From a virus, in IMG/VR virus record IMGVR_UViG_3300023176_002574, positions 1 to 54,496 of that record: DNA of 54,496 nucleotides. One strand, 5' to 3'. Positions 32,381-51,235 of this stretch are shown here, one piece after another; position 1 is the first letter of the stretch, and each line of letters begins with the position of its first letter. The notes under the pieces were generated by a model, which saw nothing but the letters and a program-made list of their open reading frames with translations, ran no database searches and had not been told where the DNA came from. The position numbers were made by a program, and so were the translations under genes.

Positions 32381-32827
32381 ATGTTTACCGACGCAAATGT
32401 TTTCACACTCAGTGTGCCCGAAACCAAACGCTATCTGAGAGACATTCAGAGAAATAGTATTGGGATGGATGAATGGTTTAGGAGGTTTGAGACAGCACAT
32501 GAATCTCAAACAAATTATCCCCCATTCAACCTAGTAAAAGAAACCGCAACCAAGTTTAGACTAGAGATTGCTCTAGCAGGTTATGGTAAGGAAGACATTG
32601 AAGTTAGTACGGAATGGAACAAACTTCATATAGAATCCAAGAAAGTAGAAGAAAGCGAAGTAGAGTATGTGCATCGTGGTGTAGCAAAACGTGCTTTCAA
32701 TCGCAGTTGGACACTATCTGATGATGTAGTTGTTGGAGCAGTTTCATTTGAGAATGGAATGCTTACAATTGAACTAAATCGAGTTGTACCAGAACATCAA
32801 ATGCGTAAAGTATACGAAATTGCATAA
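32381..32827 (+). CDS. hsp20: Small heat shock protein Hsp20
   Basis: The 148-residue protein has an alpha-crystallin domain: FNLVKETATKFRLEIALAGY, KEDIEVSTEWNKLHIESK, RSWTLSDDVVVGAVSFENG and a final MLTIELNRVVPE strand. Hsp20 holds unfolded proteins and is common in T4-like cyanophages. The ATG at 32381 is preferred; an in-frame upstream ATG at 32312 lies right after the terminator. It sits between regA and gp43, outside the T4 order. Confidence 0.92.
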   Translation: MFTDANVFTLSVPETKRYLRDIQRNSIGMDEWFRRFETAHESQTNYPPFNLVKETATKFRLEIALAGYGKEDIEVSTEWNKLHIESKKVEESEVEYVHRGVAKRAFNRSWTLSDDVVVGAVSFENGMLTIELNRVVPEHQMRKVYEIA

Positions 32828-40088: not shown

Positions 40089-40309
40089 TGAATAAGAAAC
40101 CACTGACAGTTGAGGAGACAGAAGTTGCTTGTGAGCAGTTCTTTCCTATCTTTGATCTAATCCGCAACCAAATGCCTGTAGAGGCAACTATTGAGGACAC
40201 ACTTAAAGTAATGGAAACTGTCTGTACCTTGGCGCATAAGATTCGTGCTGAAAAAGAAATGGAAGCACTACCCTTTGGGTTCAATAAAAAAACTACAGTT
40301 GAACAGTAA
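40088..40309 (+). CDS. Small hypothetical protein downstream of mazG
   Basis: The 73-residue protein starts on the mazG stop (TAATG) and begins NKKPLTVEETEVACEQFFPI; it is helical with a charged KIRAEKEMEAL segment. It has no recognised family. Its TAA stop immediately precedes the late promoter motif and hairpin at 40309. Confidence 0.6.
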   Translation: MNKKPLTVEETEVACEQFFPIFDLIRNQMPVEATIEDTLKVMETVCTLAHKIRAEKEMEALPFGFNKKTTVEQ

Positions 40310-40336
40310 TAAATATCCCCGTAAGGGGATTTTTTT
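40309..40336 (+). terminator. Late promoter motif fused to a terminator/RBS hairpin
   Basis: ATAAATA at 40309-40315 runs into the hairpin ATCCCC-GTAA-GGGGAT (40315-40330) and a T-run ending at the ATG at 40337. The 3' arm AAGGGGA is also the only ribosome-binding site for the next gene. A transcript starting about six bases after the late motif would begin in the GTAA loop and could not form the hairpin. Confidence 0.75.
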
Positions 40337-40558
40337 ATGGAAGAGATTATTGGCCTCTTTATTGCGAAGTATCGAAATCGCATGAAAAATATGCGTAAAA
40401 TGCTAAAATCCAAGCGCATACAGCATTTTGCACAGTTCTACGTATCTTCCCTAGATAAATATAAGGAAGACAAGACAAAATACACTAGACTTAGGACACT
40501 AGGTCTTAAGTACATTATGGACCACCAAGACGATATTCTCGCTCAACTTGATACATGA
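40337..40558 (+). CDS. Small basic hypothetical protein
   Basis: The 73-residue, Lys-rich helical protein contains KNMRKMLKSKRIQHFAQFY. The start lies seven bases after the hairpin's GGGGAT, which can serve as Shine-Dalgarno. It overlaps the next gene (ATGA). It begins a block of virion-type genes. Function is unknown. Confidence 0.6.
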   Translation: MEEIIGLFIAKYRNRMKNMRKMLKSKRIQHFAQFYVSSLDKYKEDKTKYTRLRTLGLKYIMDHQDDILAQLDT

Positions 40559-49106: not shown

Positions 49107-49239
49107 CACTCCTGAGTGGAAAAAAAGAGCATTATCAGATCCAACCTTGACCGACAAACAGGTCGAGGTTCTTTTGTATGGACCAAAATCTCTTGCCCAA
49201 GCATGGATGTTGCAATCATTAAAGTATAAATATAGATAG
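49087..49239 (+). CDS. Small ORF overlapping the previous gene
   Basis: The 50-residue frame starts at GTG, overlapping the preceding gene by 20 bases. It encodes a Lys/Leu-rich helical peptide (TPEWKKRALSDPTLTDKQVE). The frame fills the gap up to the next gene, and its last codons contain the late promoter motif. Support is frame coherence only. Confidence 0.4.
   Translation: MSVANSNTPEWKKRALSDPTLTDKQVEVLLYGPKSLAQAWMLQSLKYKYR
49225..49232 (+). promoter_or_regulatory. Late promoter motif upstream of a structural gene
   Basis: TATAAATA at 49225-49232 is 34 bases before the ATG at 49266, in a region without other promoters. Confidence 0.65.
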
Positions 49240-49265: not shown

Positions 49266-50363
49266 ATGGCAGGTCTATCTAATCTTAGAGAAGCGTATGC
49301 TTCTGTCTATGACGCAGAACTACGTCAGGAACTACAAGAAGACAATCTTGAGTATATTGATCTTCTGAGCGATGAGGATATTGAGGACGTTGTTCTTCAA
49401 GTTAGCGAGGAACTAGAAGACTTCGGTTACTCTTTGAATGAATCGCTAGAAGCATTTGAAGTTCACGCCATTGAACTTGTTGAAGCAAAGGTTACTTACG
49501 GTCAAGGCAGCGCACTTGCTGCCAAGGCAAGAGTTGAGAAGCGCAAGTCTGAAAGATCTGAAGCAGAAAAAACAGCACGTGCAGAGAAGCGTGCGGCACG
49601 TGTTGAGCGTGTAAAGGGTGCTATCAAGAAAGTTGGTAGCATGGCAAAGGCTGCCATCAAGGGTATGGCAAACAAGGTTGAAATGAAACCTGGTGACTCT
49701 TCCAAGAGCACTGCTGCTAGAGTCCAAAGGGCACGTGATGCTGCAGGTGCTGGTGCTGAGAGAGCAAAGCAAGCAGCAGGTGGTGCAGTCAGTGCTGCTA
49801 AGGCAGGCGCTAAGAAGAAACTAGCATCTGCTCTAAGATCTGTTGCATCTCCTGGTGGCGCAATCAACAGAGCACGTCGCCAAGTTAACAAGGCAGATCG
49901 TCAGTCCAGCGGCGTTGTCAAGTCTGTCGTTGACACTGCAAGAAAAATCAAGGCAAAGGGTTCTGCAGCAAAAGAAAGAGCAGTATCTTATGCCAACAGA
50001 AAACTGGGTGATGCAGAGAAGGGTGCTAGAAATCTAGCAAATAGACTTGATCCCCCCGCTAAGAAGGGCAAGAAAAAGCCTATGGGCGAAGATGCTTATC
50101 AAATTGCTAGCGATCTTGCAGAGAACCTAGTCGAGCAGGGTTTTGCTAGAGACTTTGAAGGTGGCATGACAATCCTTGCCAACATGAATCCTGATTACAT
50201 TGAGGAAATGATGCAGGACATCTATGAACTCACTTTCCCCATGCAGGTTAACGTTGCTGATATGAAAGGTAACACACCTGCATATCAAGGATACCTGAAG
50301 GGTAAGAAACTAAAGGATGGTTCCCCCATGTACAAAGCAGGTCCTGGTGTTAAAGGCGTTTGA
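49266..50363 (+). CDS. Virion-type basic protein with histone-like Lys/Ala repeats
   Basis: The 365-residue protein has an acidic N-terminal 75 residues (LRQELQEDNLEYIDLLSDED; VVLQVSEELEDFGYSLNE), then a very basic, Ala-rich helical region at 85-280 (RAEKRAARVERVKGAIKKVG; AKAAIKGMANKV; RARDAAGAGAERAKQAAGG). The C-terminus again is acidic (FEGGMTILANMNPDYIEEMM), then GYLKGKKLKDGSPMYKAG. ELVEAK near residue 77 could be a gp21 site. It shares the acid/basic alternation of the protein at 4691. Probably a DNA-associated internal protein. Confidence 0.65.
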   Translation: MAGLSNLREAYASVYDAELRQELQEDNLEYIDLLSDEDIEDVVLQVSEELEDFGYSLNESLEAFEVHAIELVEAKVTYGQGSALAAKARVEKRKSERSEAEKTARAEKRAARVERVKGAIKKVGSMAKAAIKGMANKVEMKPGDSSKSTAARVQRARDAAGAGAERAKQAAGGAVSAAKAGAKKKLASALRSVASPGGAINRARRQVNKADRQSSGVVKSVVDTARKIKAKGSAAKERAVSYANRKLGDAEKGARNLANRLDPPAKKGKKKPMGEDAYQIASDLAENLVEQGFARDFEGGMTILANMNPDYIEEMMQDIYELTFPMQVNVADMKGNTPAYQGYLKGKKLKDGSPMYKAGPGVKGV

Positions 50364-50379
50364 TCTAAAAGACAACTAG

Positions 50380-50411
50380 ATAAATACCCCTAGTAATAGG
50401 GGTATTTTTTT
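50380..50411 (+). terminator. Late promoter motif fused to a terminator/RBS hairpin
   Basis: ATAAATA at 50380-50386 runs into the hairpin TACCCCT-AGTAAT-AGGGGTA (50385-50404) and seven T residues ending at the ATG at 50412. The AGGGG of the 3' arm is the only Shine-Dalgarno candidate for that ATG. The geometry matches the site at 40309. Confidence 0.78.
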
Positions 50412-50744
50412 ATGCGTGCCCAGTCTGCTAAAGCAAAGGGTAGACGGTTGCAGCAATGGGTGAGACAGAAACTTATTGAAGCACTGGATATACATCCTGA
50501 GGATATTGAGTCTCGTTCTATGGGAGCAGGTGGAGAAGACCTGATCATGGCGCGTGCGGCACGAGAAAGATTTCCTCATTCTATTGAGTGTAAAAACGTA
50601 GAGAAACTCAATGTGTGGGAAGCATATGAGCAAGCAAAAGCAAATTGTGGTAAGTATGAACCACTTGTGATTATGAAAAAGAATGGTAAAAAACCATTAG
50701 CAGTTATTGACGCTGAATATTTTATTAAACTGTTTGATAAATAG
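50412..50744 (+). CDS. PD-(D/E)xK nuclease, Holliday-junction-resolvase-like
   Basis: The 110-residue protein has Asp43 in GGEDLIM and Glu59-C-Lys61 in HSIECKNVEKLN, the active-site pattern of small archaeal-type junction resolvases and VRR-NUC-like nucleases. The N-terminus (AKAKGRRLQQWVRQKLIEAL) is a basic helix like that of such resolvases. It could resolve branched DNA before packaging, the role of gp49 in T4. Its stop contains the next late motif. Confidence 0.7.
   Translation: MRAQSAKAKGRRLQQWVRQKLIEALDIHPEDIESRSMGAGGEDLIMARAARERFPHSIECKNVEKLNVWEAYEQAKANCGKYEPLVIMKKNGKKPLAVIDAEYFIKLFDK
50737..50743 (+). promoter_or_regulatory. Late promoter motif overlapping the nuclease stop
   Basis: GATAAATAG places ATAAATA in the last two codons and TAG stop of the nuclease gene, 22 bases before the next ATG. 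Confidence 0.6.
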
Positions 50745-50764
50745 CAAGGACTTGCTTTTTACAA

Positions 50765-51235
50765 ATGGCGGAAGAAAATAAAGAATCTCTGCAAGAAAAA
50801 CCAGAAGAAAAGAAGAAAGGACCATTTGCTAAATTGAGGGATGCTGCTACTGATCATGAAGGTCAGTTGGAAGCAATCAGTACAATGGTCAGACTTGGTA
50901 TTCTCGTATGGTCTGGTGGTATTTTGACTCTTGCTTATATTAAACTTCCTGCCGCACTTGGTATTCCCGAGCAAAAACTTGATCCCACTTTCATCGCATC
51001 TGTCTTCACTGGGGTTCTAGCCACTTTTGGGGTTCAGACTGCAAAGAAGTCTGGTGATGGCACAATGAAAATGGGTGGCGGTAGCAATATAACCAAGGCA
51101 GATCTTGAGAAACTTATTGCTGCTGCGGCACAAACAGCACCTGCTCAAACTATCCGTATTGAACAAGCGCCCATTCAGATTGCAACTGTTGCTCCCAAAA
51201 AGGATGGCGAACCACCTGTAATGCCCACAGTATAA
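50765..51235 (+). CDS. Membrane protein, two transmembrane segments
   Basis: The 156-residue protein starts with a Glu/Lys-rich 40 residues. Two hydrophobic segments follow: MVRLGILVWSGGILTLAYIK (41-60) and FIASVFTGVLATFGVQTA (76-93). A glycine-rich linker and an Ala/Gln/Pro-rich tail end it. Two short helices with a charged N-terminus is a layout used by some holins, but no endolysin lies nearby. Function is unknown. Confidence 0.65.
   Translation: MAEENKESLQEKPEEKKKGPFAKLRDAATDHEGQLEAISTMVRLGILVWSGGILTLAYIKLPAALGIPEQKLDPTFIASVFTGVLATFGVQTAKKSGDGTMKMGGGSNITKADLEKLIAAAAQTAPAQTIRIEQAPIQIATVAPKKDGEPPVMPTV

Follow-up and report, generated by a model that had tools for sequence, protein, structure and literature searches.

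The DNA directly upstream of a resolvase-like nuclease gene in a cyanophage genome fragment is likely a self-bypassing terminator-promoter junction, as our data indicate. A late promoter is nested here in a predicted intrinsic terminator, and copies with a Shine-Dalgarno (SD) sequence in the hairpin, the resolvase copy included, probably have a second lock in the hiding of the ribosome binding site (RBS). We also lean, with less assurance, toward a wider reading in which promoter-in-terminator junctions, covering about 35 nt from stop to start codon and with the transcription start on the loop side, are in general use among marine T4-like cyanophages. Such a junction would end the upstream operon and start the next one, from either late gp55 promoters or sigma70 extended -10 promoters.

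The source is a 54.5-kb IMG/VR virus fragment of 54,496 nt (the window). For this stretch, nearly all of the closest DNA relatives are phages of Synechococcus and Prochlorococcus, and the source virus is a wild marine cyanophage. By a simple count of ORFs, ~95% of the window is coding. It has 22 copies of ATAAATA on the + strand and none on the - strand, which makes this motif the most strand-biased of its 21 anagrams, and the copies lie mostly 20-50 nt before starts.

Architecture of the junction

The junction before the nuclease gene (site 2, 50376-50420) has the order G-ATAAATA-CCCCT-AGTAAT-AGGGG-TA-TTTTTTT-ATG. All the elements named in a first-pass annotation were found in place, i.e. ATAAATA (50380-50386), TACCCCT (50385-50391), AGTAAT (50392-50397), AGGGGTA (50398-50404), T7 (50405-50411) and ATG (50412). 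The stem and loop described there are present, with a helix longer than the 7 bp and 6-base loop (50392-50397) first given: it has 11 bp and a GTAA loop. The helix pairs 50382-50392 with 50397-50407, and hence the promoter's own AAATA belongs to the 5' arm. The 49-nt region of site 2 folds at -17.3 kcal/mol (z = -4.2), with 1 of 200 shuffles as good. On the + strand, a terminator scan picks up site 2 and a related site 1 (40315-40330) as strong terminator-like sites. Site 2 has the GC-rich stem, the short loop and the U-run right after the stem of an intrinsic terminator, together with the features of an RBS-sequestering element: the late motif overlaps the 5' arm, and the 3' arm carries AGGGG 9 nt before the ATG. 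Within the window, no match to an Rfam family reaches the gathering threshold; the weak E-value matches around site 2 are far under gathering, and a known Rfam element was rejected, these matches being due to chance.

Table 1. Features of the junction at site 2, its neighboring genes and the two other copies in the window
Feature	Position	Strand	Description or basis
Site 1	40309..40339	+	ATAAATA 40309-40315, ATCCCC/GGGGAT, GTAA loop, T7, ATG 40337
Upstream co-directional gene	49266..50363	+	365 aa, phrog_24078, function not assigned by family; ends 16 nt 5' of the promoter motif
Late (gp55-type) promoter motif ATAAATA	50380..50386	+	Sequence, strand bias and T4 consensus
5' arm AAATACCCCTA of the predicted terminator hairpin, contains the promoter end	50382..50392	+	Terminator scan, folding
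Predicted late transcription start (+1), hairpin apex	50392	+	T4 -6 rule
Loop GTAA	50393..50396	+	Folding
3' arm TAGGGGTATTT with SD-like AGGGG (50398-50402), 9 nt before ATG	50397..50407	+	Sequence, folding
T7 run, U-tract of the predicted intrinsic terminator, directly before the start codon	50405..50411	+	Sequence, terminator scan
PD-(D/E)XK-like nuclease, 110 aa	50412..50744	+	PHROG label RusA-like Holliday junction resolvase (T4-GC846)
Third copy, weaker, mirrored (3' arm without SD)	50737..50767	+	ATAAATA 50737-50743, AGCAA/TTGCT, GGAC loop, T5, ATG 50765

At site 1 the upstream stop codon TAA (40307-40309) overlaps the late motif. The third copy overlaps the stop codon of the resolvase gene and folds at -5.0 kcal/mol. 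T4 late promoters have TATAAATA at -13 to -6 (PMC1524935), i.e. the +1 lies six nt after the motif. This rule predicts the +1 at 50392 for site 2, in agreement with the earlier expectation of a start in the loop, at 40321 for site 1 and at 50749 for the third copy, all at the hairpin apex or in the loop. Elsewhere in the window, at 32824, a late motif is located some 6-12 nt 5' of an intact terminator-like hairpin.

We propose that a polymerase coming from the upstream gene would transcribe both arms, so that the hairpin forms and the U-tract releases the polymerase just before the resolvase ATG. A gp55 polymerase would bind ATAAATA and start at about 50392, at the hairpin apex, giving a 20-nt leader. 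This late RNA would lack the 5' arm and therefore could not form the terminator, and would read through. In copies with a purine-rich 3' arm the hairpin would also bury the SD of read-through transcripts, and the late transcript would leave the SD free. Among the matches listed, the median folding energy of the hairpin, from the motif through the U-run, is -11.4 and -13.4 kcal/mol for the two stem classes, and the leader from the +1 to the ATG (14-22 nt) has a median of 0.0; on these values one would expect termination of the upstream polymerase but not of the late transcript. Against our reading, termination could be weak where the GC core is short. Termination, start position and SD use are what we infer from the sequence, the start position being borrowed from T4.

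The downstream protein may be mislabeled as RusA-like in PHROG. Its invariant residues, E42-D43...E59-C60-K61, suggest a PD-(D/E)XK, Hjc-like nuclease. Its AlphaFold model has a pLDDT of 83, and Foldseek gives weak matches to archaeal Hjc and splicing endonucleases, none at E <= 0.001.

Enrichment and spacing of the motif

The composite of TAAATA, hairpin, T-run and ATG is 8.2-fold over-represented in 13 kyanovirus records plus the window when compared with 13 anagrams (14/1972 vs 31/35483, Fisher p = 4e-8). This enrichment in related phages bears out the first-pass claim that the geometry is not due to chance. In the same set of records, all 12 terminators overlapping TAAATA abut an ATG, vs 72 of 275 other terminators (p = 2e-7).

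The association was also found among the IMG/VR matches listed. Of 94 distinct sequences with TAAATA directly before a CCYC/GRGG stem (class A) followed by T5, 72 have a start codon within 6 nt; with the mirrored GRGG/CCYC stem this holds for 56 of 108. Replacing TAAATA by the anagram AATAAT leaves a start codon in 1 of 74, and with the motif shifted 6 nt further upstream the counts are 11/112 and 7/99 (p = 8e-24 and 5e-13). Since both controls fall low, the association with start codons hinges on the motif as well as on precise spacing. These sequences are related, with 35 of the class A genes among the matches listed belonging to this resolvase family, so the p-values overstate independence and the effect size counts more.

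The distribution of the junction is patchy, a point against our reading. The scan of the kyanovirus records gave no junction with a start codon in Syn1, Syn9, S-CAM1, S-WAM1, P-TIM40, DSL-LC02 and HTVC008M. A late motif ~6-12 nt 5' of an intact terminator-like hairpin was observed in S-PM2 (142728 and 146873), P-SSM2 (190738 and 212686), Syn9 (130378) and P-TIM40 (55462). With this spacing the complete hairpin would be part of the late transcript, and the arrangement is either unexplained or due to chance. In one conserved IMG/VR family (AAAGTACGGCTAAATATATAGCCCTC..GAGGGCTTTTTTCTTATGGC), located upstream of a MAFTE-like protein, the spacing is another one: 5-6 nt separate the motif from the stem, and the U-run is followed by a start codon.

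Conservation and variant forms

More than half of 80 nuclease homologues in IMG/VR have the motif upstream, and most of these have the full junction. At least 42 distinct resolvase-linked sequences carry motif and stem, with stems such as CCCCT/AGGGG, CCTCC/GGAGG and CCTTC/GAAGG, and the G-rich SD-like arm stays on the 3' side in nearly all resolvase-linked copies among the matches listed. The isolate S-PM2 carries the resolvase copy at 115170. Other resolvase homologues have no late motif, and several of them overlap the upstream gene. The pairing pattern indicates that the junction stem is conserved with compensatory changes: the free stem position in the ATG-adjacent class A copies listed is C-G in 39, T-A in 26 and T-G in 7 cases, and never a C-A mismatch. 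Mismatches at this position do occur in copies without a start codon and in the anagram set. Among the IMG/VR matches listed, the upstream stop codon is often 0-3 nt before the motif, and the genes that follow the junction group into 55 clusters, with baseplate wedge, head-tail adaptor and major head proteins among them. At five loci upstream of the resolvase (L046, L048, L068, L074 and L076) the late motif is kept and the hairpin is A/T-rich without a U-tract, possibly a T4-like form without the terminator.

In S-H34 the same resolvase gene is preceded by ATAAATAGAGGGGATAACACCCCTCTTTTTTTATG, where the arms are swapped and the C-rich 3' arm hides no SD; this mirrored copy keeps the terminator shape and the start position. 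In isolates, members of the mirrored class stand before baseplate wedge and major head genes, and in IMG/VR before many more genes. S-H34 also has a glutamine riboswitch (RF01739, E = 9e-7; locus L091, 1003-1093) a few hundred nt 5' of the resolvase gene.

In a third form, a sigma70-like extended -10 takes the place of the late motif. A start codon comes after the pattern TATAAT n1-3 GGGG..CCYCTTTTT in 62 of 116 matches listed, vs 11 of 91 for TAATAT, and the TGn of the extended -10 is present in 55 of these 62. Terminators that abut an ATG and carry a sigma70 extended -10 without the late motif were found in Syn9 (NC_008296, 168324), S-PM2 (NC_006820, 138888) and S-RIM8 (NC_020486, 163142). 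In Syn9 and S-PM2 this form lies directly 3' of psbD, whose stop codon TGA gives the TG of TGnTATAAT. The predicted promoter, terminator and start codon are common to all forms and the hidden SD is not. RBS hiding is excluded as the function shared by all forms, given the mirrored copies, whose 3' arm has no SD (56/108 listed), and the sigma70 copies (62/116 listed), and as a general function it was rejected for both.

Comparison with known systems

Documented RBS-sequestering hairpins with late promoters are known from the T4 genes e, soc, 49 and I-TevI, and also from segB and Aeh1 mobE (PMC3014915, PMC2988022). We read the T4 genome directly: gene 49 has AATAAATACCCTTATCTATTTAAGGTAAGGGTTTATTATG (AATAAATACCCTTATC..GGTAAGGGTTTATTATG), and e and I-TevI are alike. 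The parallel with gene 49 drawn in the first-pass annotation is thus a close one, with nearly the same layout of promoter, arm and SD. The T4 late hairpins resemble site 2 in that their SD is in the 3' arm, a late promoter lies within or beside the 5' arm, and the late transcript, as is predicted for site 2, is without the 5' arm; in gene 49 and I-TevI, AATAAATAC runs straight into the arm. However, the T4 late hairpins have no U-tract and are not intrinsic terminators, whereas the cyanophage junction has T5-T8 after the stem and an ATG within a few nt, and also has mirrored and sigma70 forms in which no SD is hidden. Two motif-plus-stem patterns detect the element in S-PM2, S-H34, S-RIM8 and S-T4 but have no match in T4, KVP40, Aeh1 and RB49, and for this reason the U-tract form looks kyanovirus-like on these few genomes.

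The junction shares the motif, the strand bias and the 20-50 nt distance to starts with T4-type late promoters (gp55/gp33/gp45; kyanovirus form [AC]TAAATA), but its motif is nested in a predicted terminator. It shares the GC stem, short loop and U-run with Rho-independent terminators, but its start codon abuts the U-run and its promoter lies within the 5' arm. The candidate cyanophage 5'-UTR RNAs PhotoRC-II, wcaG and manA (PMC2864571) and the S-PM2 psbA leader hairpin (PMC5931967) are also structured RNAs before cyanophage genes; unlike the junction hairpin, they are leaders transcribed whole.

Alternative explanations

Site 2 could be a T4-style timer only, whose hairpin would hide the resolvase SD in early read-through RNA until the late promoter frees it, with no terminator role for the U-run. 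The matching layout in T4 genes 49, e and I-TevI and the 3' position of the G-rich arm in nearly all resolvase-linked copies listed fit this proposal, which we nevertheless consider unlikely: a U-tract is absent from the T4 copies, mirrored copies whose 3' arm has no SD occur commonly, one of them before the same gene in S-H34, and sigma70 copies exist. Moreover, the upstream gene 49266 carries its own ATAAATA at 49226, which makes a strict early/late switch at site 2 doubtful. The RBS-hiding switch of the first-pass annotation therefore holds in that an SD-like AGGGG is freed in the predicted late transcript, but it is not the whole story, having overlooked the intrinsic terminator, the mirrored and sigma70 copies and this second late motif.

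The hairpin and U-run might instead act post-transcriptionally, through protection of 5' or 3' ends, RNase processing or a U-rich ribosomal S1 site at the start codon. A U-rich stretch does lie directly before the ATG in all classes, and initiation in the mirrored class, having no SD, may need a U-rich leader, but the need for the late motif to abut the hairpin would be left unexplained, and we regard such a role as quite improbable. We give very little credence to an ordinary terminator of the upstream gene with a late motif overlapping it by chance and the downstream gene being read from elsewhere. Terminators often follow genes closely and 72 of the 275 non-overlapping ones abut an ATG as well, but the association is specific for motif and spacing, and the strand bias of the motif is 22:0; chance overlap of motif and terminator was rejected by the anagram and 6-nt shift controls.

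Biological implications

The T4 late-hairpin design is already known, and the broader promoter-in-terminator class may be new; no description of the junction came up in the open-access papers searched on promoter/terminator or cyanophage promoter subjects. The earlier RBS-hiding reading is partly supported and is contained in the broader terminator-promoter junction. The terminator function would be separable from the RBS hiding of the T4 late-hairpin design. The signature predicts transcript ends of both kinds, 3' and 5', only a few nt apart, and it is present in the cultured phages S-PM2, S-H34, S-RIM8 and S-T4. If our reading is true, a transcript avoids its own terminator through its start position, without an antiterminator, and a compact phage genome punctuates adjacent transcription units without any spacer.
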